Below are positions 340 to 16,728 of a DNA stretch of 39,196 nucleotides, in pieces. Within the stretch, counting starts at the first letter, position 1; the number at the start of each line of letters is the position of its first letter. The notes below the pieces were generated by a model. It worked only from the letters and a program-made list of their open reading frames with translations, made no database searches and had not been told where the DNA came from. The position numbers and the translations under genes are program-made. This stretch comes from Candidatus Poribacteria bacterium (GTDB lineage Bacteria > Poribacteria > WGA-4E > WGA-3G): positions 1 through 39,196 of the forward strand of contig JAJEAG010000004.1 in assembly GCA_022824265.1 (NCBI GenBank), given 5' to 3'.

Positions 340-355
340 CGCACAAGAATGTGCA
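340..355. promoter_or_regulatory. 16-bp palindromic activator site, distal copy (P1)
   Basis: CGCACA-AGAA-TGTGCA matches the pattern TGCACA-N4-TGTGCA with one mismatch. It lies 30 bp upstream of a second copy (370-385), placing both on the same face of the helix, and about 108 bp upstream of the -24 element of the sigma-54 promoter. This is the usual place for upstream activating sequences of enhancer-binding proteins. The same pair at the same 30-bp spacing recurs at 6280/6310. Confidence 0.65.
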
Positions 356-369
356 TCGTCCATTATATA

Positions 370-385
370 TGCACATACTTGTGCA
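370..385. promoter_or_regulatory. 16-bp palindromic activator site, proximal copy (P1)
   Basis: TGCACA-TACT-TGTGCA is a perfect 6+4+6 palindrome. It is centred about 78 bp upstream of the TGGCAC element of the sigma-54 promoter at 448. A run of T follows shortly after (389-395), so a terminator function for rightward transcripts is formally possible, but no + strand gene lies to the left. Confidence 0.7.
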
Positions 386-447
386 ACAGATTTTTAGTCC
401 ATTCTATCGGATATTGAAGAATATAGTCTTTCCTACCTAACCCTTTC

Positions 448-463
448 TGGCACGAAAATTGCT
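448..463 (+). promoter_or_regulatory. Sigma-54 (RpoN) promoter P1 for gene 537
   Basis: TGGCACGAAAATTGCT matches the -24/-12 consensus TGGCAC-N5-TTGC, with exactly ten bases between the GG (449-450) and GC (461-462). The predicted transcription start is near 474, giving a 5' leader of about 63 nt before the ATG at 537. Such promoters need an ATP-driven enhancer-binding protein; the palindromes at 340 and 370 are the candidate sites. Confidence 0.8.
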
Positions 464-536
464 CTAAACAATATATCTCGTCAATCAAATTGATACCAAC
501 GCGCGCGCAATTAGTTGACTTTAATTAGGTTTTGAT

Positions 537-3500
537 ATGAACATATATAAACGCACAATCCATTCTCTGCATATTATCAACTGTATTCTTTGCATGTTTC
601 TGTTTTACGGTTGTGGTGCGGATAGTCTTGGACCGCATAAGGATCTGTTGCCTATGGTTGATGGGGATAAGAAATTCTCGGATAGATATAGATTAGAAGA
701 AGAACCACAATTTTATTATGACCTCTATGGTAAAGAGGTTATTGAAGGCAGTGAACTCAGCAGATACGATGAAAACAAGCAATTTGACAAAGACGGAAAG
801 TTAGTTGTTGGTTGGTCAGGTCAACTTGATAGTCTACGGTTCACAGCACAATTGGATAGGACAATTATTGTAGAAGAAACTTTTCTCGGTAGACATACTG
901 AGTTTGCTATTGGTGACCACATACGGCTTAAACCTGACACCCTTTTCCCAAACCAATATATCGTTTCTAAAACAGAATTTGATGGATTGCGATGGGATAT
1001 AACTTTTGCTCAAGAACATCACCTATTTACAATTCTTCATTCACGTATTTCTAACCCTATTAGGCTATCAGATAATCCACCGGGTCAACGACTTGGATTT
1101 GAACTTGGTCGTCGTAACGGCTTGAATCAACTATCGGGTGTAAGGCATATTGAGAACTCACGTCTGGTAGGTATCCGAGGGCAGGCACTATTAACAGAAA
1201 ATTTTCGTATTGGATATACTTATCTCAATCTACATAAAGAACATCCTGAACGCTTGTTGACATCTTTAATGGGTACAGTTGCGAACACACCTCCTGAATC
1301 AATATCAATCGTCTTTCGTGATGACTCACCGGAGGATAATCACACAAGTGCTTTAACTGGTTTTGATAATTATGATTCTGAACTACACGGTAACAATCTT
1401 CAAGAAGGGGTCGGTGCAGCGTTTAAAAGTATGAAAATTACGATTGTCACACAAGCACTTGAGGATTTACATATTGATGATATTAAGGAAGGTCTTGAAC
1501 CCAAACTACTGGCAGAACAGACACATCATTTTAATGTTACTGCTGATCAAGTTATCCCATTACATCTTGGTAATCGTGAATCTAAAGTGCGCACCTCAGT
1601 TGATGGAGAGTGGAAAATAGTTAACGGCTTCAATAAAATGAAATATGACTTTAATCTATTGGATAGTGATATTAACATTGACCCACGCACAGTAAAGTCA
1701 GTTGTATTTGACATGATTGTTGCGGGGGATTACAACATCGCAGTGATTGGATTTAGTGAGGCAAACAAATCGGAGACTGATCCCGATCTACAAGAATGGA
1801 TAAAAACTGAAGACGGTCATCTTGAGATGCCATACCGTGATATTATTGAAGCACCAGGGAACTATGGACAATCTCCAGAGTATAGAAATAATAGAAGGGA
1901 ACTTCAAGACAATCCAAGTAAATGGAAGGATGAAGGAAGACCTCGCAAAGTAAAATATCGTTATGGTGCTGCGCGGGCAGCAACCCTATATGGAATTGAT
2001 CTTGAAGGAACTATTGCTAATGTTTTTATTAGGACTCACTACTCCACAAATGGTAAATTCAAGCAGTATCCTACTATACCAAAAGATAAGGTTGGATTTA
2101 GCCGTACCAAAACTACTGTAAAGACTCCTACTGGTGAGGAACCAACTGGTGTTTCTATTGATTCGCAGACCAGACTTCCAGTAGATAGCAATGGTATCCC
2201 CACCTATTCTGAAACCGAAGGTGAACGTTTTGAAGCATTTTTAGGTGGAGATGGAACAGATTTAGAGGGTGACGGAAAACTTGGTAGGGAAAGGGCATGG
2301 TTTATACAACTAAAGGCACGTTTTAATAAACTTCTTTTAGAAGGTGTTTTGTATCACATTGACCCAGGATACACGACCAGTTACTACAATTTCGGTGTAC
2401 ATCCGAACCGAGGACAAATTTATATGATTGATCCTTTAAATCAACAAGAATTTGCAACGGAGATTGAATCATGGGATGGAAATAATTATGCACTGGTTGA
2501 GGACGACGATGATGGGGATGGTTGGCCCGATGACATAGACTTTGATGGTGTAATACCCGAAGTAGACGACCGAGATCAAAATGGCGTATTAGATTTCCAA
2601 GAGGATTTTCTCATTTTTGATGCTGACCCAGCTATGTTTAAGGGTATTATAGATATGAATAATAATGGTACTGTTGATACAATAGAAGATAATTTTGAAC
2701 CTGAATACGAATACGGTATTGATCGGAAAGGTTATCATATAACTGCCGATTACGATATACTTGATAATCTTACACTAAAATTGGGATGGTTAAATGAAAG
2801 CGAAGTTTCAAGTAGACGACATAACAATAATAAATACATACACCTAATTTATCAACGTGACATCCCCGAAGTAGGTAGTTTTCTTTTTCAAAACCGATAT
2901 GTACGAGTACAAGATGATATACCTGATTATACAATTACGTTACCCGTAGGCGAATTAGAACCCATTTCCATAAGTGATGAACTTGATTTTTATAACGCAC
3001 GAATAAATACAACAACTCTCCAATTCCTATATTCAGGCATTCGTAACTTAACACTTGAAGCGAAAAGTCTTGTTGTCATGCAAAGACAGTTTGAACAAAA
3101 AAAAGAAAACGCCCTATTCACAGATATTATATACGACCCAGTAAAGGAAAGATATGAACCCGATGAACGCGTAGACTTTATGATTCCCATCGATCAGGTT
3201 CGTACTCAAGGATTTAGACGAGTAAACCCTTTCTATCCTGACCATGGCATATATGTGCTTGATCCGGGTGACACTGGTATAATTTATGACGCAGAAAACT
3301 GGAAAATACGACGATATCCTGAACGTGTCATGCGTAATCAGTTGACTATTTTAAAAGCAAGATACGAAATTCAACTTGGTGATTTACCTTATATTACAAG
3401 AATCGCTGAAGATATAGTACTGACACCAATGGTAAAATATGTATGGGATCGTGCTTTTGACAGAACTGCTGAAGAAATACCACTAACACTCAACCCCGAA

Positions 3501-3875
3501 TTGTTCATACCAACTGATATTGAGCCTTATGAATATCTGCGATTCAATCGACGTAGCCGCGAGGATATACTCGGTGTACGTCTTGACTATCATTTTAGTC
3601 CGAAAGTAAAAATACTTGGTGGATTCCAATATAGGAAATTCGTTAACCGAGATAAGAATTACAAGAACTACATAAGCCAATTTCCTGCTGACCAAAAAAT
3701 ACCATTCATTTTTCGACCAGACATCAGAACTCGGATTCTTGAGATCCAATCCATCAACCGTGGTGAATATCTCGGTTTTTATATTGTCACACTTGCAGGC
3801 TTCCGAAGAACAACCAATCTATCCCAAAATGTAGTTAGCCATACACTGTTTGTTCGAACCATGATAGGATTTTAA
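537..3875 (+). CDS. Large putative outer-membrane beta-barrel protein with acidic calcium-binding-like insert
   Basis: 1112 residues, no family recognised with certainty. Residues 1-26 form an export signal ending FYGC, so Cys26 could be a lipidation site, although the -3 position is Phe rather than Leu/Val/Ile. Much of the length shows alternating hydrophobic/polar stretches typical of beta strands, and the protein ends HTLFVRTMIGF, a terminal aromatic strand like the BAM recognition signal of outer-membrane barrels. At about 655-721 there is an Asp-rich stretch (DDDDGDGWPDD, DRDQNGVLD, DMNNNGTVD) resembling EF-hand or dockerin loops that bind calcium. Only weak Shine-Dalgarno (AGG). It is followed after 40 nt by a secreted WD40 protein with a type IX-type tail, so I infer a surface assembly or transport role. 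Placement in the outer membrane is inference. Confidence 0.6.
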   Translation: MNIYKRTIHSLHIINCILCMFLFYGCGADSLGPHKDLLPMVDGDKKFSDRYRLEEEPQFYYDLYGKEVIEGSELSRYDENKQFDKDGKLVVGWSGQLDSLRFTAQLDRTIIVEETFLGRHTEFAIGDHIRLKPDTLFPNQYIVSKTEFDGLRWDITFAQEHHLFTILHSRISNPIRLSDNPPGQRLGFELGRRNGLNQLSGVRHIENSRLVGIRGQALLTENFRIGYTYLNLHKEHPERLLTSLMGTVANTPPESISIVFRDDSPEDNHTSALTGFDNYDSELHGNNLQEGVGAAFKSMKITIVTQALEDLHIDDIKEGLEPKLLAEQTHHFNVTADQVIPLHLGNRESKVRTSVDGEWKIVNGFNKMKYDFNLLDSDINIDPRTVKSVVFDMIVAGDYNIAVIGFSEANKSETDPDLQEWIKTEDGHLEMPYRDIIEAPGNYGQSPEYRNNRRELQDNPSKWKDEGRPRKVKYRYGAARAATLYGIDLEGTIANVFIRTHYSTNGKFKQYPTIPKDKVGFSRTKTTVKTPTGEEPTGVSIDSQTRLPVDSNGIPTYSETEGERFEAFLGGDGTDLEGDGKLGRERAWFIQLKARFNKLLLEGVLYHIDPGYTTSYYNFGVHPNRGQIYMIDPLNQQEFATEIESWDGNNYALVEDDDDGDGWPDDIDFDGVIPEVDDRDQNGVLDFQEDFLIFDADPAMFKGIIDMNNNGTVDTIEDNFEPEYEYGIDRKGYHITADYDILDNLTLKLGWLNESEVSSRRHNNNKYIHLIYQRDIPEVGSFLFQNRYVRVQDDIPDYTITLPVGELEPISISDELDFYNARINTTTLQFLYSGIRNLTLEAKSLVVMQRQFEQKKENALFTDIIYDPVKERYEPDERVDFMIPIDQVRTQGFRRVNPFYPDHGIYVLDPGDTGIIYDAENWKIRRYPERVMRNQLTILKARYEIQLGDLPYITRIAEDIVLTPMVKYVWDRAFDRTAEEIPLTLNPELFIPTDIEPYEYLRFNRRSREDILGVRLDYHFSPKVKILGGFQYRKFVNRDKNYKNYISQFPADQKIPFIFRPDIRTRILEIQSINRGEYLGFYIVTLAGFRRTTNLSQNVVSHTLFVRTMIGF

Positions 3876-3915
3876 AAGTGATAAACATTAAGATAGAATA
3901 GACTGGAGATATGAA

Positions 3916-6198
3916 ATGACAACCTTCACAACTAATCTTAAACGATATACATGGGTTTTTGTTATACTGGTTTGCATCACATGCATGCCATGTATAGTAT
4001 TTGCAATTGAACCGATTACGACAATTGGGAATGCACTCCCTCAAAAACAGGTATTTCTCAACGATGAAACTATACTCCGTGTTAATTGGACGAATATACA
4101 AATTGTTGATGTTGCTACAAATACAGTGATGGATGAATTTGGAGAAAAAGAATATTATGATGATGTTGTATTCAGTTCAGATGCAGAACATTTAGCAATT
4201 CTAAGGTTTAATTCTGATTCAAGAATCACCACTGTCACTATATGGAGTGTTAATGACAAAAAGCTGGTCGCTCAGTGGAAGATAGCATCGCGAATTGATG
4301 AAAATGATGCCGCATTTAGTCCTACACAACCCATATTGGCAACATACTTGCCAGATGAAATACATCTATGGAATTGGGAAAATGGAGAATCAATCGGAAA
4401 GATGGAACGTGAAAACTTTCCATCTTTAGTTTCAATGGAGTTTACCCGGGACGGAGAACATCTATTCATTGCATCAAGGTATGAAATAGAGATATGGAAT
4501 ATTGAATCACGTCTTTTAGAAGCTACATTTCCCGATCTTGGTTTTGATAAGCTTAAAAGCATTGCTGTCAGTCCAAATAATAAATATGTTGCAGCACATA
4601 GACGCAATACCGCATTTTTTTATATTTGGGATGTGGAAACCCATCAACAGTTATGGCGTGACAAGAGTGGTATTGGTAGAATTGCAAATATGGTATTCAG
4701 TTCCGATAGTCAATCATTATATGTTGCTACAAGAACAGCTGGCTTGAGTAGAAAAGGGGACGTACCCTATACTGGTTGGGATGATACAGTACGTATCTGG
4801 GATATCCAGTCAGGTAAACAGATAGATTCCTTCGGAACAGAATTTAATTTTTTAGAGTCTATGACACTATCTCCAAATGAGAAAACTGCACTATTAGAAT
4901 ATTGGGATGTAGATGTAGTCTATGATATAGAAAAGAAAGAGACAAAACACGTATGGGCAGATTATGTCTCAAGTCGGTTCACTAATGATGTTGTGATGAG
5001 TTCAGATGGAAATTCGTTAGCCTCAATATCTTTAACAACACTTAAGACCTGGGATACTACATCGCAACAGATGCTTACCACGGATACATCAGATGGCTAT
5101 ATATTTTCTGGATTAGCAATATCTCCAGATAATCAGAATATAGCAATCGGTAAGAATTTAAGAGTAGAATTGCGTGATATACGAAGTGGTAGAGTAACAT
5201 CGCGTTTTCCACATTATCTATCTGATGTAGACAGCATTTCATTCAGTCCTTCGGGTAGATGGCTTGCAGTGGTGAATGATTGGGGAGATCTCATCATATT
5301 AGATTCAAAAAGAACTGATAGGATTCAGAGATTAAATCGGAAATTAGATTTACAGACACCAAACTATCATTCTATTGCTTTCAGCAGAAATGAAGAGTAT
5401 TTGGCAGCGTCAGGCACCACAGCAAAGAATAACATTACGAAATATTGGATTGTGATATGGAAACGTATTAAGGATATTTACAGATTCCAATACGAGATGT
5501 CAACACAAAAACTTGCCGATAATCTTACATTTACTAACATTAAAGATGGTTCATTAGTGTTAGCAACATCTATTGATAAAGAAGTCCACGTAATGAAAGT
5601 TTTCTTAAACAGCCTTCGTCTCTTAACTACAGTAGATGGAGAATATCCGTTAGGATTTTATGATAATGGTCGTTATCTTTTTGTTAATAATAGAGATCAC
5701 TCTCAAATCTGGGATTGGCAGAAAGGCAAATCTATCAAACACGCACAACTTCCAAAGGTATCATCTATAAGCGATGATTGTTCTGTTATTGGGTCCTATA
5801 ATGCAAATGGACAGTTCTCTATCTGGAATACAAGTAATGTCCTATCTCTTTTACCTTATTCAGTTGAACCAAATGGCAAGCAGTTTGTTACACTCGGACA
5901 GATAAAACGAAATCAACTCCTACAAAACTTCCCGAATCCATTCAATCCTGAAACATGGATTCCCTTCAAACTTGCTGATGAGAGTAATGTAACAATTGAG
6001 ATTCGCAGTGCCACGGGAGAACTTGTTCGATCAATATCACCGGGAACAATGAAGGCTGGAGACTATTCAAACCAATCGCAGGCGGTTCACTGGAATGGTC
6101 AGAATAACGATGGTGAATCTGTGAGTAGTGGTGTATATTTCTATACCATAAACGCAGGTGAATACTCAGCAACAAGAAAAATGATTATCAAAAAATGA
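3916..6198 (+). CDS. Secreted WD40-repeat propeller protein with C-terminal FlgD-like/type IX sorting domain
   Basis: 760 residues. A signal peptide of about 34 residues ends near VFA/IEPI. The body consists of WD40-like repeats (for example IRIWDI-, IWNIES- and SFSPSGRWLAV-type strands), probably two propellers. The C-terminal ~90 residues begin NFPNPFNPETWIPF and end ATRKMIIKK, the FlgD-Ig-like domain used as a type A sorting signal by type IX secretion and common at the end of secreted proteins in Poribacteria and FCB bacteria. RBS GGAG about 7 nt before the ATG. It is close to gene 537 and likely co-transcribed from the sigma-54 promoter P1. Its neighbour at 6495 is a paralogue sharing the N-terminal EPI motif, the repeat layout and the tail. 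Ligand unknown. Confidence 0.8.
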   Translation: MTTFTTNLKRYTWVFVILVCITCMPCIVFAIEPITTIGNALPQKQVFLNDETILRVNWTNIQIVDVATNTVMDEFGEKEYYDDVVFSSDAEHLAILRFNSDSRITTVTIWSVNDKKLVAQWKIASRIDENDAAFSPTQPILATYLPDEIHLWNWENGESIGKMERENFPSLVSMEFTRDGEHLFIASRYEIEIWNIESRLLEATFPDLGFDKLKSIAVSPNNKYVAAHRRNTAFFYIWDVETHQQLWRDKSGIGRIANMVFSSDSQSLYVATRTAGLSRKGDVPYTGWDDTVRIWDIQSGKQIDSFGTEFNFLESMTLSPNEKTALLEYWDVDVVYDIEKKETKHVWADYVSSRFTNDVVMSSDGNSLASISLTTLKTWDTTSQQMLTTDTSDGYIFSGLAISPDNQNIAIGKNLRVELRDIRSGRVTSRFPHYLSDVDSISFSPSGRWLAVVNDWGDLIILDSKRTDRIQRLNRKLDLQTPNYHSIAFSRNEEYLAASGTTAKNNITKYWIVIWKRIKDIYRFQYEMSTQKLADNLTFTNIKDGSLVLATSIDKEVHVMKVFLNSLRLLTTVDGEYPLGFYDNGRYLFVNNRDHSQIWDWQKGKSIKHAQLPKVSSISDDCSVIGSYNANGQFSIWNTSNVLSLLPYSVEPNGKQFVTLGQIKRNQLLQNFPNPFNPETWIPFKLADESNVTIEIRSATGELVRSISPGTMKAGDYSNQSQAVHWNGQNNDGESVSSGVYFYTINAGEYSATRKMIIKK

Positions 6199-6279
6199 GA
6201 TGGAATTGTGGAGTTGGAAAACATGTAAGTCCAATGTTTTACAGGCACAACATTGATATATTAGCATAATTTTGATGTA

Positions 6280-6295
6280 TGTACAATATTGTGCA
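6280..6295. promoter_or_regulatory. 16-bp palindromic activator site, distal copy (P2)
   Basis: TGTACA-ATAT-TGTGCA matches TGCACA-N4-TGTGCA with one mismatch. It starts exactly 30 bp upstream of the second copy at 6310, the same spacing as in the P1 control region. Confidence 0.6.
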
Positions 6296-6301
6296 TCATC
6301 T

Positions 6302-6339
6302 AAATCAGCTGCACATCCACGTGCAGCTGATTTCTTTTT
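6302..6339 (+). terminator. Rho-independent terminator after gene 3916, overlapping an activator site
   Basis: AAATCAGCTGCAC (6302-6314) pairs perfectly over 13 bp with GTGCAGCTGATTT (6321-6333) around a 6-nt loop, followed by CTTTTT. It lies about 100 nt after the stop of the WD40 gene. The upper part of the stem is also TGCACA-TCCA-CGTGCA (6310-6325), the proximal activator palindrome of promoter P2, so one sequence may serve both as RNA terminator and as DNA operator. Confidence 0.75.
6310..6325. promoter_or_regulatory. 16-bp palindromic activator site, proximal copy (P2)
   Basis: TGCACA-TCCA-CGTGCA is one base off the TGCACA-N4-TGTGCA pattern and starts 75 bp upstream of the TGGCAC element at 6385 (78 bp in P1). 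It sits within the terminator hairpin 6302-6339. Confidence 0.55.
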
Positions 6340-6384
6340 ATACTTTCTAACACTATAATTGTAGGGTTTTACAGGAATTATCTT

Positions 6385-6400
6385 TGGCACAATAATTGCT
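6385..6400 (+). promoter_or_regulatory. Sigma-54 (RpoN) promoter P2 for gene 6495
   Basis: TGGCACAATAATTGCT fits TGGCAC-N5-TTGC with ten bases between GG (6386-6387) and GC (6398-6399). The predicted start near 6411 leaves an ~84-nt leader. It has the same architecture as P1, with two upstream palindromes. Transcription may continue through the YWTD array. Confidence 0.8.
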
Positions 6401-6494
6401 GTTATAAATACATTTGTGTGATGTGCTGGAAACAATTATTACAATAAGTGTAATATACAGATTCTATTCATCATTCATATTTTGGAGAATCGTC

Positions 6495-8858
6495 ATGCAT
6501 AACAAATTGAACCGAATATTTCGCAAATTGTTCATTTATTCCACTTTGATTATCTTACTTTGTAGAACTGACATTGTGTTTGCAAATGAACCTATCGCAC
6601 AGATTGGACAACCCTATCCAATGCAAAATGCCTTCCTGAATAATGATACGGTTGTTCGTGTTCTCGCCTCAAAGATGCAGATTGTTGATGCTAACACAGA
6701 CGTAATAAAAGATGAATTTGGTGATTTGGAATACTACTTTAATAGTGTAATAAGTGATACAGGTTCCCATGTCGTAATTCAGGATTATTCCAGCAGTACA
6801 AAGACTTATGAATTAACCATTTGGGATGTAAACGCGAGGGAACAAATATCTTCATGGGGGCATGATGACAATTTTAGAACCGCAGCATTTAGTCCCACAG
6901 AAACATTACTCGCAACCTCAGTTAATGACAAGATTCATCTATGGAATTGGCAAACCGGGAACCTTATTGGTACAATGGGGGGTGAACGTCGTCCGATTGA
7001 GCAATGCAATTATTATACGGCTCCCAATGGAAAACGGTATAAGACTTCTTGTTCATTTCAAGCACGCAGTCATGATATGTTGTTTACTCAGGATGGTAAG
7101 TATCTAATCGTAGCATCACAACGACCAGACATAGAGGTCTGGAATGTGGAAACTCTCCAATTGGTAGGACATTTAGGTATGCATTCGGGTAGTTGGGTAA
7201 ATGGTGTAGCTGTTAGTCCAGATGGAACATACATCGCTTCCTATGATAGCGAACCCGGTTCTGTATATTTGTGGAATTTGCAGTCAGGACAACTTGTATG
7301 GAAGCAAAAAAGTGCAATTGGAAGAATATCGGATTTAATATTCAGTCCTGATAGTCAACTCTTGTATGTTGCGACAGATACGTACGGGCTAAGTAGGTCA
7401 GGTCAGGATCCTTTAGTAGGGTGGAAAGGATGGTATGATAAAGTAAAGGTATTTGATATCCAATCCGGACAACAGATAGATATATTCCAGACACAATTTA
7501 AGTCAATACAATCTTTACGAATTTCACCTGACGGAAAAAAGTTACTATTACTCTATTTGGATGGTGAAATAGTGTGGGACATTGAAAATAAACGAATACA
7601 CAAGTCATGGACAGACTTTGCCTATGAGTGGTCTTATTCAAGAGATGTTGATTTAAGCCCAGATGGAAAAACTGTACTTGCTATGTCAGGAAGTTTTATT
7701 AAATCTTGGGACGTTTCTTCACAACAGATGCAACTACTCATTCCTTCCGAAAACTATACATATAATACGATTGCAATCTCTCATAACAGTAAACGTTTTG
7801 CTGTTAGTAGAGAACCTTTAGTTGAAATACGAGACCTACATACCGGTGAAGTTGAAACGCAATTTCCGCATTCCTTCTTACTTCCTGAAAATATTACCTT
7901 CAGTTCATCTGGAAAATGGCTTGCAGTGAAAGGTCATTGGGGACATGTAGATATCTTGAATACCGATTTACCAGAAAATAAACAACGTCTTGAACCGCCC
8001 TTTAAACTTCAATTACCCGGTGGACACTACCCAATAGGTTTCAGTGAAAATGAACAATATTTTGCAACTTCAGGACACACAAAAATAGATAATGATAAAT
8101 CAAAATATTGGATTCTGTTGTGGGAACGGGTGGAGGACACATTTGTCTTTAAATACGCGTGGTTGGGAGGTTTTGCTGCACAACCTATATTCAAGACCGA
8201 TGCAGATGGTTCAACCGTTTTAGCTGGAAACGGGAGAGATGGTATCCATATATGGAAACTCTTACCAAAAGAACCGATTCTACTATCATCGTTTGATGGA
8301 GAATATCCCCTACAATTTAGTGAAGATGGTCGCTATCTATTTGCCTACAGTGAAAACAACTTTCAAATCTGGGACTGGCGGAGGAGCAAACTTGTTAATC
8401 AAGCTCCTTTCCCTTGGTATAAGTCTATCAGTCAGGATGGATCATTTTTATTAACAGCTGGTGTGTCGGGACAATATCAGATCTGGGATTTAACTCACCT
8501 GTTGTCCTTCTTACCATATTCAGTTGAACCTGAAGGAAAACAACTTGTTACCCTTGGTCAGATAAAACGAAACCAACTGATGCAGAACTTCCCGAACCCT
8601 TTCAATCCTGAAACATGGATTCCCTTCAAACTTGCTGATGAGAGCACTGTAACAATTGACATTCACAGTTCCACAGGTGAACTCATTCGCTCAATATCAC
8701 CGGGAACAATGAAGGCAGGAGACTATTCTGGTCAATCGGATGCAGTTTATTGGGATGGTAATAACAACGACGGTGAACCTGTGAGTAGTGGCGTATATTT
8801 CTATACAATTAACACTGATGGCTTTTCTGCTACACGAAAAATGATTATAAGGAAATGA
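6495..8858 (+). CDS. Secreted WD40-repeat propeller protein with C-terminal FlgD-like/type IX sorting domain (paralogue of 3916)
   Basis: 787 residues from the ATG at 6495, chosen over an in-frame ATG-like start 81 nt earlier because GGAG stands 7 nt before it and the protein then starts with a clean signal peptide (hydrophobic core, cut near VFA/NEPI). WD40-like repeats follow, then the ~90-residue tail beginning NFPNPFNPETWIPF and ending ATRKMIIRK. It aligns with the upstream gene through most of its length but carries an extra segment around residues 145-175 containing two Cys (EQCNYYTAPNGK region). Driven by the sigma-54 promoter P2. The two proteins are tandem duplicates that have diverged clearly in the propeller and little in the tail. 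Confidence 0.8.
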   Translation: MHNKLNRIFRKLFIYSTLIILLCRTDIVFANEPIAQIGQPYPMQNAFLNNDTVVRVLASKMQIVDANTDVIKDEFGDLEYYFNSVISDTGSHVVIQDYSSSTKTYELTIWDVNAREQISSWGHDDNFRTAAFSPTETLLATSVNDKIHLWNWQTGNLIGTMGGERRPIEQCNYYTAPNGKRYKTSCSFQARSHDMLFTQDGKYLIVASQRPDIEVWNVETLQLVGHLGMHSGSWVNGVAVSPDGTYIASYDSEPGSVYLWNLQSGQLVWKQKSAIGRISDLIFSPDSQLLYVATDTYGLSRSGQDPLVGWKGWYDKVKVFDIQSGQQIDIFQTQFKSIQSLRISPDGKKLLLLYLDGEIVWDIENKRIHKSWTDFAYEWSYSRDVDLSPDGKTVLAMSGSFIKSWDVSSQQMQLLIPSENYTYNTIAISHNSKRFAVSREPLVEIRDLHTGEVETQFPHSFLLPENITFSSSGKWLAVKGHWGHVDILNTDLPENKQRLEPPFKLQLPGGHYPIGFSENEQYFATSGHTKIDNDKSKYWILLWERVEDTFVFKYAWLGGFAAQPIFKTDADGSTVLAGNGRDGIHIWKLLPKEPILLSSFDGEYPLQFSEDGRYLFAYSENNFQIWDWRRSKLVNQAPFPWYKSISQDGSFLLTAGVSGQYQIWDLTHLLSFLPYSVEPEGKQLVTLGQIKRNQLMQNFPNPFNPETWIPFKLADESTVTIDIHSSTGELIRSISPGTMKAGDYSGQSDAVYWDGNNNDGEPVSSGVYFYTINTDGFSATRKMIIRK

Positions 8859-8900
8859 GAAGTTATCATCATATATTTCTATATAATGGGGTTTAAAACT

Positions 8901-9854
8901 ATGGTCATTCATAATATCAAACGAAACCGATTATTACTGATTTTCATTGTATTCTTGACAATTTATTTCGTTCAAGAAATACATTACGCTCATGCAAGAG
9001 GTAAGATGTTTTGGACAGAATCTTCATGGAACTGGCAGACGAATGAAGGCAAAATCAAACGGGCTAACCTAAACGGAACTGGGGTAGAAGATTTAGTTAC
9101 AGGATTGTACAAACCTATAGATATTGAATTAGACCTGCAAAACCACAAGATGTACTGGGTAGACAATACTGCAAAGTTGATACAACGAGCAAACCTTGAT
9201 GGTACAAATGTTGAAGATATCTTGATAGGTAAAAGAATTACCTCTCTTGCCATAGATGTTGAATCGGAAAAACTATATTGGGGAAATGAGATTTTAGAAG
9301 TTATTCAATGTGCAAAACTTGACGGCACTAAAATTGAAAACATTGATATTAACAAAATGTGGATTACTGCTGCGAACATTGAACTGGATATAGATTCTGG
9401 TAAGATTTACTGGACAGATTATTTTGAAGATGTAATCGCCCGGGCAAATCTGGACGGAACTGAAACTGAAAACCTCGTAACCAATGTTGAAGGAGTTAAC
9501 GACTTAGCATTAGACCTAAGCAACCGTAAGATGTACTGGACGGATGTAATACATGGTAAAATTCATCGCGCAAACCTTAACGGTATGCAGATTAAAGACA
9601 TTGTTACAGGACTAAAAAAACCGTTCGGTATTACTTTGGATTTGAACTCTCAAAAGATATATTGGGTAGATTGGGATTGGGACACTGATACATATAAGAT
9701 TCAGCGTGCCGATCTTGATGGTGCCAATGTTCGAGATTTATTCACTGGTTTGAATCGTCCATCAGAAATAGTATTGGACACGGATGGATTTTACGATGTT
9801 ATTCCAGATGCAAACAAGGTAACAACCACGTGGGCAAAAGTGAAGTCCAAGTAA
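8901..9854 (+). CDS. Secreted six-bladed YWTD (LDL-receptor class B-like) propeller, array member 1
   Basis: 317 residues from the ATG at 8901; an earlier in-frame ATG at 8886 lacks any Shine-Dalgarno, while GGGG stands 9 nt before 8901. A signal peptide ends near YAHA/RGK. Six blades are marked by MFWTE, MYWVD, LYWGN, IYWTD, MYWTD and IYWVD, each followed by a 'RANLDGT' type strand, the hallmark of YWTD/LDLR class B propellers, which bind protein or carbohydrate ligands outside the cell. The C terminus is NKVTTTWAKVKSK, a tail shared with all array members and with the LamG protein at 17836. It starts 42 nt after gene 6495 and is probably in the same transcript. Confidence 0.8.
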   Translation: MVIHNIKRNRLLLIFIVFLTIYFVQEIHYAHARGKMFWTESSWNWQTNEGKIKRANLNGTGVEDLVTGLYKPIDIELDLQNHKMYWVDNTAKLIQRANLDGTNVEDILIGKRITSLAIDVESEKLYWGNEILEVIQCAKLDGTKIENIDINKMWITAANIELDIDSGKIYWTDYFEDVIARANLDGTETENLVTNVEGVNDLALDLSNRKMYWTDVIHGKIHRANLNGMQIKDIVTGLKKPFGITLDLNSQKIYWVDWDWDTDTYKIQRADLDGANVRDLFTGLNRPSEIVLDTDGFYDVIPDANKVTTTWAKVKSK

Positions 9855-9879
9855 TGTCAATAAAGAACGATTGTATGAG

Positions 9880-10863
9880 ATGAATATTCAATTGATGACT
9901 TACAAACGGATCGCTATATTCTCTGTGATAGTTTTGTTGACTTCTGTTGTACAGACTATCGGTTTTGCACAGGGAAGTCCAAAGATATATTGGACAGAAT
10001 CTGATAAAATAAAACGGGCTAACTTTGACGGCACTAATGTGGAAAATGTCTTGACGAATGATAAAGGAATAAGGAATATCGCTTTGGATATTCAGAACCA
10101 CAAGATTTACTGGATTGGATGGACACATAACATCAAACGTGCAAACCTTGATGGAACGGATGTTGAAACTATTTACAATCCACAAGCATTAAATCCAGAT
10201 AAAGTTGAACGGATACATTCTCCAATCACCATTGCCTTAGATACAAGTGCAAAACATATATATTGGGGTAATATGTGGGCACCATGGGGTATTACACGGG
10301 CTAACTTTGATGGGTCTAATATAGAAGATTTTACAATATTACCTGTAGATGGCGGTGTCTTTAATATAAGAGTAGATGCTGAAGACATTAAACTTGACGT
10401 GAAGGAAGGTAAGATATATTTCCAAGATTCTCTAAATGATAATATAGCGCGTGTTGACATGGACGGGTCAAATTATGAGATAATACGTGGTGGTATTATA
10501 CATCACAATAGACTTGCACTTGATTTGACAAACAAAAGAATATATTGGTCAACAATTATGCGGGATGAAATACGATCATCTTTCCTTAATGGAAAAAATA
10601 TTGATATTCTCCTTACAAATTTGAACTATCCTACTGAAATAGCTTTGGATATTCACTCACAAAAGATTTACTGGACAGAAAGGAATTTCAAAACAGAGAA
10701 GAGCATGATCCGATGTGCTAATCTTGACGGTTCAAATGTAACTGATATTCTGATTGGATCGAATAATGTCGGAAGTATCGCTTTGGATACAGAAGGTGTT
10801 TACGGTGTAAATCCTGACAAGGATAAAATAACAACCACTTGGGCTAATGTTAAAACCCAGTGA
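9880..10863 (+). CDS. Secreted six-bladed YWTD propeller, array member 2
   Basis: About 327 residues; the ATG at 9880 is preferred over an in-frame TTG at 9871, and a later ATG at 9895 is possible since no clear ribosome site decides. The signal peptide is cut near GFA/QGS. Blade motifs are IYWTE, IYWIG, IYWGN, IYFQD, IYWST and IYWTE; blade 4 has Phe for Trp. The tail is DKITTTWANVKTQ. It lies 25 nt after member 1 and its stop overlaps a possible GTG start of member 3, so translation may be coupled. Confidence 0.8.
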   Translation: MNIQLMTYKRIAIFSVIVLLTSVVQTIGFAQGSPKIYWTESDKIKRANFDGTNVENVLTNDKGIRNIALDIQNHKIYWIGWTHNIKRANLDGTDVETIYNPQALNPDKVERIHSPITIALDTSAKHIYWGNMWAPWGITRANFDGSNIEDFTILPVDGGVFNIRVDAEDIKLDVKEGKIYFQDSLNDNIARVDMDGSNYEIIRGGIIHHNRLALDLTNKRIYWSTIMRDEIRSSFLNGKNIDILLTNLNYPTEIALDIHSQKIYWTERNFKTEKSMIRCANLDGSNVTDILIGSNNVGSIALDTEGVYGVNPDKDKITTTWANVKTQ

Positions 10864-10886
10864 TTCCTAATGGTGTGAGAAAAAGT

Positions 10887-11852
10887 ATGGGTAATCAAGT
10901 TATCACACTCAAACGTATAGCGTTTATTACAGTGACGGTATTATTGATTTCTATTTTTCAAGGATTGTGTTATGGACAAGGAAGAGGAAAGATATATTTT
11001 GCAGGATCCGGGAAGATCAGACGGGCAAATCTAAATGGGACTGCTGTTGAAGATGTCATCACCGATCTGGAATCACCGTTTGATATAAAATTAGACTTAC
11101 ATAACAGTAAATTGTATTGGGTTAACTTCCGTCCACCAAAGATCTATCGTGCTAACTTAGACGGTTCAAATATTGAGTTAATCATTGACGGTGGAAATGA
11201 AAATGAAATGGATAAGGACATGCTAAAGTTTCCATACTCCATTGCCATTGACACTGATGCAAAAAAGATATACTGGGGTAGAAAAGCATTCCCTTGGAAA
11301 ATACGACGTGCAGACTTTGATGGAAATAATATAGAAGATGTTTTATTCAGACCGATGGTTGATGCTGAAAATCTTGTGCTTGATTTAAAAGGTGGTAAGA
11401 TATACTTGACAGATTCTTTTAATGATAACATCACACGCTTAAACCTTGACGGATCTGATTATGAAGAACTTGGTATTTTGCGACCTGCACCAAGTGGACT
11501 TGCACTCGATCTAAACAATCGTAATTTGTATTGGACCGATATCTGGCTTGGTAGAATTGAAAAGTACTCGATTAATGAAAAAAAAGTTGTAACCCTTATT
11601 AAAGAATTGCTCAGACCAGATGATATCGCTTTACATATCCGCTCTGGTAAGATGTACTGGGTTGAAGGGGAAAGAGAAACACATAAAGAAAAAATCAGAA
11701 GCGCAAAACTTGACGGTTCTAATGTAACTGATATACTGACTGGATTTGATCATATAACTGGTATTGCCATAGCCCCTGGTGAACTTTACGATGTATCACC
11801 AGACACAAATAAAATAACAACCACTTGGGCAAATTTGAAAACGGTAGACTAA
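10887..11852 (+). CDS. Secreted six-bladed YWTD propeller, array member 3
   Basis: 321 residues from the ATG at 10887, with a weak GAGA ribosome site 7 nt upstream. An in-frame GTG at 10860 overlaps the previous stop codon (GTGA) and would add nine residues. The signal peptide is cut near CYG/QGR. Blade motifs are IYFAG, LYWVN, IYWGR, IYLTD, LYWTD and MYWVE, so blades 1 and 4 have lost the Trp. The C terminus is NKITTTWANLKTVD. Confidence 0.8.
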   Translation: MGNQVITLKRIAFITVTVLLISIFQGLCYGQGRGKIYFAGSGKIRRANLNGTAVEDVITDLESPFDIKLDLHNSKLYWVNFRPPKIYRANLDGSNIELIIDGGNENEMDKDMLKFPYSIAIDTDAKKIYWGRKAFPWKIRRADFDGNNIEDVLFRPMVDAENLVLDLKGGKIYLTDSFNDNITRLNLDGSDYEELGILRPAPSGLALDLNNRNLYWTDIWLGRIEKYSINEKKVVTLIKELLRPDDIALHIRSGKMYWVEGERETHKEKIRSAKLDGSNVTDILTGFDHITGIAIAPGELYDVSPDTNKITTTWANLKTVD

Positions 11853-11996
11853 ACATAAATCTGTTAAATAATAACTCCTAAAGCACCCACCTGATAAGAT
11901 CCCAACTCTATTTTTACTGAACAAATAGATTGCCTCCTTTCGCATACTGTGGTAATTTGTGCATTACATTGTACACCGAAAGAAGGGGTAAAATGT

Positions 11997-12950
11997 ATGT
12001 ATGCCACGGAATTATGTAAAGTACGGTATGTGTTTATATTAATCACACTACTGTTGACGATTGTTTTCCAAGGTAGAACTGACGCAGTAGGAAAAGGCAA
12101 AATATATTGGTCGGAAGGGAATAAAATCAGGCAAGCGAACCTTGATGGATCGCATGTTAAAGACCTATTAACTGGACTAAGATTCCCGCGGGACATTACC
12201 TTAGACATTAGTAATGGTAAGATGTATTGGATTGGACATTTCCAGACTAAGATAATGCGAGCAAATCTTGATGGTTCCGAAGTTGAAACCATCTATACTA
12301 ATAAGGGAAACAGATTAAGAATTCATTCAATTGAGTGTATTGCAGTAGACAGTAACACAAGCAAGATTTATTGGGCTGGAGCCCCCTTTCTGCATTTTTA
12401 TCGCGCCAACCTTGACGGAACAAATGTTCAAGAATTTGAAACCAATGTAAGAATTGCTATAGCTAAAGATATTGAACTTGATCCGAAAGCACGAAAAATT
12501 TACTGGCTTAACCTATCACCGCGAGTTGTCATCTCACGTACGAATCTAAATGGGACCAACATAAAACATATTATCCACGGAAGGACTCTTTCAGACGGAT
12601 TTGCATTGGATATTCAGGCAGACAAGATTTATTGGTCTGACAAATTCAGAGGAAGAATACAAAATTCCTCTCTCAATTGGGATAATATTGAAGACACCGT
12701 CACTGGATTAAGATTTCCTAAACTAATTGCTTTAGATAAACGTTCACGCAAGATTTATTGGACAGAGAACGAAATGGCAGGACCACATTTCAGAATCGGT
12801 AGAGCAAACCTTGATGGAACAAATGTTACTAATGTACTTACAGGTTTGAATAACGTTACTGGTATCGCTTTACACCTCATTGGTACTTATGATGTTACGT
12901 CTGACGTAAATAAATTGACAACTACATGGGCAAACATAAAAGCACAATAA
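11997..12950 (+). CDS. Secreted six-bladed YWTD propeller, array member 4
   Basis: 317 residues from the ATG at 11997, chosen because AAGAAGGGG stands about 8 nt upstream and the product starts directly with a signal peptide; an in-frame GTG at 11949 would add 16 unlikely residues. Blade motifs are IYWSE, MYWIG, IYWAG, IYWLN, IYWSD and IYWTE. The tail is NKLTTTWANIKAQ. The 144-nt gap before it is the longest inside the array and could hold a separate promoter, though I see no good -35/-10 pair. Confidence 0.8.
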   Translation: MYATELCKVRYVFILITLLLTIVFQGRTDAVGKGKIYWSEGNKIRQANLDGSHVKDLLTGLRFPRDITLDISNGKMYWIGHFQTKIMRANLDGSEVETIYTNKGNRLRIHSIECIAVDSNTSKIYWAGAPFLHFYRANLDGTNVQEFETNVRIAIAKDIELDPKARKIYWLNLSPRVVISRTNLNGTNIKHIIHGRTLSDGFALDIQADKIYWSDKFRGRIQNSSLNWDNIEDTVTGLRFPKLIALDKRSRKIYWTENEMAGPHFRIGRANLDGTNVTNVLTGLNNVTGIALHLIGTYDVTSDVNKLTTTWANIKAQ

Positions 12951-13018
12951 TACTTTCTCTACTTGATGCCAGTACAATAAATTGACATTATTTTTTCTTA
13001 TAAAACGAAGGAGATGAT

Positions 13019-13966
13019 ATGAATATTATGAATCAAACACATAAACTATACATATCGATTGCGATTACTTTTTTATTGAGTCTTTTTGTTCTAAGTTTAA
13101 AAAACGCACAAGGCAAAAGTAAAATATACTGGTCTGAAAACGGAAAAATACGACGTGCTAACCTTAATGGAACTTCGGTTGAAGACATTGCAGTTTTTAA
13201 TACAAAACCGAAAGATATCGCTATTGATTCGCAAAATGGAATAATTTTTTGGATCAGTCCAGAAGGAACAACGATACAACGAGCGAATCTTGATGGTACA
13301 AATATTGACATTGTTGTGTCTAACATTTCATCACCTTGCATAGCAATAGATATTAAGAATAAGAAAATATATTGGTCACCTATAATAAATAAAGGTATTT
13401 ACCATGCAAACTTTGACGGTTCCGAAATCACTGATATTATGAAAAGGAAACCTAAAGAGGATTTCCTTGGAATTAATATTGTAACTAATATGGAGGTGGA
13501 TTCAAATGGAAAAAGGATATATTGGACAGGCTTTTTGAATCAAAATATCAAACGTGTCAAATTTGATGGCACTGAACTTAAAGATATTGAAATGAACGCA
13601 GGAATTAGACCTATTGGGTTAGCATTGGATGTGAATAATGGTCATCTATATCGGTCTACTAATATAGGGATGATTCAACGGTCTTCCTTAAATGGTTGGG
13701 ATGTCAAAACCCTAATCAGTGGACTGGATTATATAACCGACATAAAATTAGACCTGCATTCTCAAAAGATATACTGGTCGAGTAAGAATAAACAGTCGAT
13801 GCAGAGTAAAATTCAACGCGCCAATCTTGACGGCTCAAAAATCAAAGATATTCTAACTGGATTGGAGGATGTCAACTCAATTGCTTTATATATAGAGGAA
13901 CTATATGATGTAACACCAGATACACATAAGTTGACAACTACTTGGGCAAATATAAAAACACAATAA
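13019..13966 (+). CDS. Secreted six-bladed YWTD propeller, array member 5
   Basis: 315 residues. AAGGAG is placed 5-6 nt before the ATG, the strongest ribosome site in the array. The signal peptide is cut near KNAQ/GKS. Blade motifs are IYWSE, IFWIS, IYWSP, IYWTG, LYRST and IYWSS; blade 5 has Arg in place of Trp, so this copy is the most diverged. The tail is HKLTTTWANIKTQ. It is the last gene of the array and is followed after 32 nt by a strong terminator. Confidence 0.8.
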   Translation: MNIMNQTHKLYISIAITFLLSLFVLSLKNAQGKSKIYWSENGKIRRANLNGTSVEDIAVFNTKPKDIAIDSQNGIIFWISPEGTTIQRANLDGTNIDIVVSNISSPCIAIDIKNKKIYWSPIINKGIYHANFDGSEITDIMKRKPKEDFLGINIVTNMEVDSNGKRIYWTGFLNQNIKRVKFDGTELKDIEMNAGIRPIGLALDVNNGHLYRSTNIGMIQRSSLNGWDVKTLISGLDYITDIKLDLHSQKIYWSSKNKQSMQSKIQRANLDGSKIKDILTGLEDVNSIALYIEELYDVTPDTHKLTTTWANIKTQ

Positions 13967-13998
13967 TTGAGACAATCACACGATAGACTTCCCAATTT

Positions 13999-14027
13999 GG
14001 TACGGCAACTTAGCCGTACCATTTTTT
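13999..14027 (+). terminator. Rho-independent terminator closing the YWTD array
   Basis: GGTACGGC (13999-14006) and GCCGTACC (14013-14020) form a perfect 8-bp stem with a 6-nt loop, followed by ATTTTTT. It separates the surface-propeller locus from the oxidoreductase gene. Confidence 0.85.
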
Positions 14028-16275: not shown

Positions 16276-16728
16276 GTGAAACAGATTGATTCAAACCAAT
16301 CAGGTTTAACCCTGGTACAAATACTAATAGTTGTAGTTATAATAGTGGTCATTGCTGCTGTTTTATTGGCACCACGGTTGCTTGGACAAGCAGGTCGCGC
16401 GCTCCAAACACGTGCTGCTGAAGATATTGAGACACTTGGCATTGCACTTGATCGGTATGCAAAAGACAGTGGGGATTATCCATCTACAGAACAAGGTTTG
16501 AAGGCATTATGGGAAACCCCTGAAGAACCTCCAATACCGATTAATTGGTTAGGTCCATATCTTCAAATCCCTATAACTGAGGACCCTTGGGGAAATCAAT
16601 ATATTTATATTCGTCCAGGTGTTCATGACCCTTATGGTTATGACCTGCTCTCATTCGGGAGTGATGGCGTAGAAGGTGGATCAGGTGAAGCTGAAGATGT
16701 TGTCAGTTGGATTCGTCGTGATGAATAA
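16276..16728 (+). CDS. GspG-like type II secretion major pseudopilin (orphan)
   Basis: 150 residues from a GTG start with GGAG 8 nt upstream. A short N terminus ends in Gly10, followed by LTLVQILIVVVIIVVI, the class III prepilin signal and hydrophobic helix. The globular part matches GspG: DRYAKDSGDYPSTEQGLKAL, then DPWGNQYIYI and DLLSFGSDGVEGG, the calcium-site region. The product is processed by prepilin peptidase and builds the pseudopilus in the periplasm. The conserved Glu at mature position +5 is Gln15 here, and no other type II secretion gene is in the window. It is embedded among metabolic genes. Confidence 0.85.
   Translation: MKQIDSNQSGLTLVQILIVVVIIVVIAAVLLAPRLLGQAGRALQTRAAEDIETLGIALDRYAKDSGDYPSTEQGLKALWETPEEPPIPINWLGPYLQIPITEDPWGNQYIYIRPGVHDPYGYDLLSFGSDGVEGGSGEAEDVVSWIRRDE

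Follow-up and report, generated by a model that had tools for sequence, protein, structure and literature searches.

Paired palindromes upstream of sigma-54 promoters mark a putative envelope-protein regulon in Poribacteria

How are the surface-propeller genes of Poribacteria switched on? These dominant uncultured sponge-associated bacteria carry many eukaryote-like repeat proteins (WD40, LDL-receptor-like and TPR) that are suspected to act at the surface or toward the host. We found no description in the literature of how these proteins are regulated, and a literature search on sigma-54, RpoN and enhancer-binding proteins in Poribacteria returned nothing relevant. A 2014 paper drew attention to poribacterial WD40 and LDL-receptor-like proteins, many of which carry Por tails; its text does not mention promoters or sigma factors (PMC3909097). 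Here, we analyse one contig (C4, 39,196 nucleotides, which in its entirety is the window) of a Candidatus Poribacteria bacterium genome of 4.45 Mb that is 97% complete. The window contains two promoter regions of the same architecture. We consider it highly probable (about 0.88) that both are sigma-54 (RpoN) promoters of an envelope/surface regulon driven by an enhancer-binding protein (bEBP) via paired palindromes. The sites are as follows.

340 to 355, no strand: predicted distal activator site (UAS) of promoter 1, CGCACAAGAATGTGCA (half-sites CGCACA and TGTGCA around AGAA; one mismatch)
370 to 385, no strand: predicted proximal activator site of promoter 1, TGCACATACTTGTGCA (half-sites TGCACA and TGTGCA around TACT), starting 30 bp from the 340 site
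448 to 462, + strand: sigma-54 -24/-12 element of promoter 1, TGGCACGAAAATTGC (TGGCAC and TTGC around GAAAA), predicted +1 at 474
6280 to 6295, no strand: predicted distal activator site of promoter 2, TGTACAATATTGTGCA (half-sites TGTACA and TGTGCA around ATAT; one mismatch)
6310 to 6325, no strand: predicted proximal activator site of promoter 2, TGCACATCCACGTGCA (half-sites TGCACA and CGTGCA around TCCA; one mismatch), starting 30 bp from the 6280 site
6385 to 6399, + strand: sigma-54 -24/-12 element of promoter 2, TGGCACAATAATTGC (TGGCAC and TTGC around AATAA), predicted +1 at 6411

Much of this had been proposed in an earlier, sequence-only reading of the same DNA. Direct reading of the sequence confirmed that the -24/-12 elements at 448 and 6385 are exact, with the claimed ten bases separating GG from GC at both, and the start sites predicted at 474 and 6411 agree with the usual -24/-12 counting. 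Two 16-bp palindromes 30 bp apart do precede each promoter; however, the form given for them, TGCACA-N4-TGTGCA, is perfect only at 370, and the 340, 6280 and 6310 sites each depart from it once. Likewise, the distances of 78 and 75 bp are obtained by counting from the first base of the proximal palindrome up to the -24 T, but the true gaps are 62 and 59 bp. These four are the only palindromes with at most one mismatch in the window, and they make up four of the five such single sites in 130 kb of the organism's own genome. Over the 24 fixed positions of the paired arrangement, the two pairs have 1 and 2 mismatches, against 8 for the next best place in the window and 6 for the best in 300 dinucleotide shuffles. 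The two-palindrome, 30-bp arrangement is thus far beyond chance. The 340 site is also kept at the orthologous loci of two relatives (G009 and G002). A further TGGCAC-N5-TTGC match at 16367 lies within coding sequence and was rejected as a promoter, being taken as chance.

In the mechanism that we propose, a dimeric bEBP would bind both palindromes of a pair, which are usually separated by 30 bp (about three turns of the helix) and located 43 to 81 bp upstream of the -24 element, and would oligomerise across the pair. It would then loop over and use ATP to open the RNAP-sigma54 complex at TGGCAY-N5-TTGC. We infer the binding, the activation, the sharing of one common activator and its identity from the evidence below.

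The same signature recurs elsewhere in the genome. We searched with a pair pattern of 24 fixed bases (TGCMC allowed, at most three mismatches) and found five places in the 4.45 Mb, compared with none for the reversed pattern used as a control. All five pairs (5/5) precede an exact TGGCAY-N5-TTGC. This promoter element occurs at 54 sites in the genome versus 10 for its reversed control, and five further sites among the 54 have a palindrome pair spaced at 29 or 31 bp. The total is about ten promoters with paired sites.

C4:448, found by the pair pattern: window promoter 1
C4:6385, found by the pair pattern: window promoter 2
C74:176164, found by the pair pattern: TPR protein
C81:31793, found by the pair pattern: secreted WD40 protein
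C97:99603, found by the pair pattern: LVIVD lipoprotein
C80:46184, pair at 29/31 bp: protein with a TonB-like N-terminus, DUF4159
C39:1858, pair at 29/31 bp: protein with an N-terminus similar to the C80 TonB-like protein
C85:77103, pair at 29/31 bp: CarboxypepD_reg/lectin-like exported protein
C3:38126, pair at 29/31 bp: dioxygenase-like protein, not exported
C89:18698, pair at 29/31 bp: YibE/F

Pairs were also present in 36 of 60 relatives, concentrated in the same family, whereas the control matched in one genome. These genomes are incomplete assemblies, and all results are derived from sequence. An exact TGGCAY-N5-TTGC follows 69 of the 78 distinct pairs at a distance of 43 to 81 bp, against a chance linkage of ~7e-5 per pair. 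The five promoters with 29- or 31-bp spacing are a description and not an unbiased test of linkage, because they were found through the sigma-54 scan; without them, overall linkage is 64/73. The other nine pairs have no recognisable promoter, and two of these nine, from another family, are probably coincidental. The palindromes are therefore rare and tightly linked to promoters; the opposite outcome, frequent and unlinked palindromes, is what the sequence-only reading had named as counting against itself.

The position of the pairs is strongly phased. Measured between the proximal palindrome and the -24 T, distances fall into four clusters about 11 bp apart (43-45, 53-55, 64-69 and 75-81 bp), with nothing between them, and phase concentration at 11 bp is high (R = 0.78, p ~1e-5; medians of 19 ortholog groups, which are not fully independent). 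With respect to the promoter, the upstream palindromes thus share one face of the helix. Furthermore, orthologous promoters differ by whole helical turns within single groups: distances are 43, 44, 44, 45, 53, 66 and 66 bp among PD40 propellers, and 54, 55 and 66-68 bp among LVIVD lipoproteins. Such shifts are expected from selection on helical face, that is, from an activator that loops the DNA. For sigma-54 systems, it is established that such phasing points to looping. The consensus of 138 sites is TGCMC-N6-GKGCA, in which G2, C5, G12 and C15 are invariant, and that of the promoters is TGGCAYRNAAATTGC.

Two features leave some room for a different account, in which the palindromes bind a repressor or other regulator and the -24/-12 element is used independently, or in which several activators share the site type: the activator itself is only inferred, and the half-sites vary (TGCACA, TGCACG, TGCCCC). 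Nevertheless, sites at 43 to 81 bp upstream of the -24 element occupy the position of an activator and not of an operator, their phasing is of the looping type, and genes with no relation to one another retain pairs of this kind. We therefore regard this account as unlikely and favour activation by a bEBP.

The genes downstream of the two promoters, and the hairpins that follow them, are listed below.

537 to 3875, + strand: 1112-aa putative lipoprotein with a conserved lipobox, FYGC (ORF); first gene of unit 1
3916 to 6198, + strand: 760-aa secreted WD40-type propeller with a FlgD_ig / Por_Secre_tail (type IX sorting) C-terminus (ORF and profiles)
6302 to 6333, + strand: intrinsic-terminator hairpin of 13 pairs with a T-run, containing the proximal site of promoter 2
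6495 to 8858, + strand: 787-aa secreted WD40 propeller with a FlgD_ig / Por_Secre_tail C-terminus (ORF and profiles)
8886 to 13966, + strand: five closely spaced YWTD (LDL-receptor class B-like) propeller ORFs (8886-9854, 9871-10863, 10860-11852, 11949-12950 and 13019-13966)
13998 to 14021, + strand: intrinsic-terminator hairpin followed by TTTTTT (from the sequence)

Unit 1 (~474-6333), which comprises the lipoprotein and a WD40 propeller, would be switched on from promoter 1 and probably ends at the hairpin at 6302 to 6333. Unit 2 (~6411-14021) would be switched on from promoter 2 and comprises the second WD40 propeller, for which we prefer an ATG start at 6495 over a TTG at 6414, and the five YWTD genes, which probably continue it to a probable end at the 13998 to 14021 hairpin. 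The first YWTD ORF matches Ldl_recept_b (1.5e-29), and the other four were assigned from their similar sequence. Both WD40 proteins end in a Por_Secre_tail / TIGR04183 domain, as type IX/Por cargo does; the tail of the second scores just under the Pfam cut-off and over that of NCBIfam. The 1112-aa protein had no match in Pfam or NCBIfam, and its AlphaFold model is unusable (mean pLDDT 35), so we do not call it a beta-barrel. It is 64-85% identical in other Poribacteria, some of which have several copies (loci L099-L149), and its close relatives all come from genomes labelled Candidatus Poribacteria or uncultured Poribacteria. Most of the paralogs have no sigma-54 site immediately upstream, and at those loci whose paired sites were followed up, a WD40 gene comes first after the sites.

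The hairpin at 6302 to 6333 bears on a further alternative, namely that the palindromes are intrinsic terminators, or form some other RNA structure belonging to the genes before them, and lie near -24/-12 elements only incidentally. The 6310 site is indeed nested in this strong hairpin with its T-run, and the structure is conserved in two relatives (G009 and, slightly shorter, G002). However, at least four extra stem pairs occur in only 16 of the 138 sites, few of them with a T-run, and terminators would leave the fixed 30-bp pairing, the helical phasing, the four invariant bases and the 69/78 linkage unexplained. This explanation has very little probability in our view, and we retain the sites as predicted bEBP targets. 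The single palindrome at 6310 may serve two operons, as terminator of the one before it and as activator site of the one after it.

The genes that follow the pairs encode mostly exported proteins. An N-terminal hydrophobic export or membrane segment, called by a crude hydrophobicity measure and not by SignalP, is present in 17 of 19 target groups compared with 18 of 59 background genes (p = 8e-6). The groups include WD40, LVIVD, PD40, regulator-type and PQQ-type propellers, TPR and LamG proteins, lipoproteins and YibE/F, with some names assigned from sequence rather than from profile matches. The shared regulon of secreted propellers envisaged earlier is thus supported as a regulon, but 'propellers' proved too narrow a term, since the targets are exported and envelope proteins generally. 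These data support the view that the signature marks an envelope/surface-protein regulon, with scores of candidate promoters in relatives, almost all before exported proteins. The TonB-like DUF4159 protein (L157; loci L330-L349) shows 74-88% identity across the entire order. Its gene keeps the paired sites and promoter in four genera of the family (g1-g4), and in families f2 and f4 it has TGCACC...GGTGCA-like sites about 33 bp apart (spacing by eye). The kept paired sites appear to mark it as a core target.

Which protein might act at these sites? As the sequence-only reading anticipated, the genome has an rpoN gene (contig C8; Sigma54_DBD 9.9e-61, 607-aa frame) and enhancer-binding-type proteins. 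There are six AAA+ sigma-54 activator-type proteins; a weak seventh match is ClpB-like by sequence and is not an EBP. The sequence-only reading's expectation of an EBP gene with a similar palindrome upstream was not borne out in this genome, where no EBP gene has the palindrome upstream and no sign of auto-regulation was seen. Four of the six carry HTH_8, with the loop motif GAFTGA in L006 and L008, GAFSGA in L010 and GAFTDA in L007. L009 (GAFTSA) has no recognisable Fis HTH and was rejected. L011 (G000:C94) is an NtrC-type response regulator that has lost the GAFTGA loop from its AAA+ domain; it is therefore unlikely to activate sigma-54 and was also set aside. L006 (L327, G000:C44) is a receiver-less PspF-like EBP encoded after secDF and a gene of an unknown family. 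It is absent from two similar genomes, G001 and G005, and we disfavour it because these are the genomes richest in site pairs.

The remaining three are ancient and occur almost throughout the order. For each, one or two incomplete genomes lack the gene but keep the sites (L010 is lacking in G014, 96% complete; L008 in G008, 90%; L007 in G004, 81%), so presence and absence do not single one out. We propose the NtrC-like orphan response regulator L008 (contig C88) as the leading candidate, with close to an even chance of being correct, because it is the EBP closest to NtrC (TIGR01818, 479.7 bits full-length against a cut-off of 558.6), the half-sites are NtrC-like, and in two species of genus g5 it lies ~2 kb from the DUF4159 target. 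Against it counts that no site lies near its own gene in this genome. The degenerate-receiver EBP L010 (contig C90) comes next, as a doubtful candidate. The recognition helix of L008 is changed in G006, G013 and G015; we rejected its co-evolution with site loss, because G006 and G013 keep canonical DUF4159-promoter sites at 31-bp spacing.

At glnAp2 of enterobacteria, two palindromes about three helical turns apart lie ~100 bp upstream of the -24/-12 element. The present promoters resemble this NtrC system in their paired palindromes, three-turn spacing, ~100 bp position and TGCAC...GTGCA half-sites. They differ from it in the 16-bp TGCMC-N6-GKGCA site, in having exported targets rather than nitrogen genes, and in distances that vary by whole turns between targets. 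The sites could be ordinary NtrC boxes and the surface proteins nitrogen-starvation genes, a reading favoured by the TGCACC...GGTGCA half-sites of the f2 DUF4159 promoter, by the placement of two sites, separated by about three turns, before sigma-54 elements, and by the rank of L008 as best NtrC match. Yet the NtrC box, TGCACCAnnnTGGTGCA, with its TGCAC...GTGCA half-sites (PMC8743547), is 17 bp long and so exceeds the present site by one base, the sigma-54 promoter of glnA in this genome lacks the pair, L008 falls under the ntrC equivalog cut-off and no other EBP passes it, and the targets are envelope proteins. For the first three of these reasons we do not file the regulon under NtrC, a reading that we judge quite improbable, and we keep to a distinct envelope regulon.

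Other bEBPs (AtoC, LuxO and VasH) combine a Fis-type DNA-binding domain with sites that have TGCA-type inverted half-sites and other core lengths. They share this half-site type with the present sites and differ in core length, a comparison made by profile ranking only. A published survey describes the exterior of bacteria as frequently under sigma-54 control (Francke et al. 2011, PMC3162934), and the poribacterial targets are likewise components of the cell exterior. That survey covers EPS, LPS, flagella, lipoproteins and wall precursors; its text mentions neither Poribacteria nor TonB and, in the portion accessible, describes no beta-propeller/TonB-like regulon with the present site. A second study predicts sigma-54 control of TonB in Flavobacteriia and of chaperones in Bacteroidota and Planctomycetota (PMC12316311), in line with the TonB-like and chaperone genes that have sigma-54 elements here; its regulons by phylum include no Poribacteria and, in the portion accessible, no class of activator sites. 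Regulons of the sigma-54/bEBP kind are thus already known, and in the literature searched we found no description of the present site type and target set.

A broader reading is conceivable, with the odds somewhat against it: a lineage-specific sigma-54 circuit, with its own bEBP and 16-bp site type, would command the whole surface-display programme (TonB-like DUF4159 protein, propellers and lipoproteins), be conserved across at least the family and probably the order of Poribacteria, and in places use one palindrome as both terminator and enhancer. The enhancer-promoter signature yields a list of putatively co-regulated surface proteins from sequence alone, narrows the activators to a small set, and makes unit-wise switching of the surface repertoire testable. 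The orthologous promoters with sites moved by whole turns are also a strong natural case of helical phasing.

Some exact sigma-54 elements have no pair. A third one in the window, TGGCACGAAATTTGC at 36387-36373 on the minus strand, lies upstream of an alpha-2-macroglobulin-like / penicillin-binding-protein 1C-like gene pair. Elsewhere, such elements precede dnaK-like (L088), groES-like (L159), ClpB-like (L079) and glnA-like (L160) genes, and two precede an hsp20-like gene (L070/L071), the chaperone and glnA names being assigned by sequence reading. The dnaK and groES upstream regions have a different palindrome type, TGTGnCAAA(a/t)TGnCA, and this difference suggests that a sigma-54 heat-shock group answers to a second activator.
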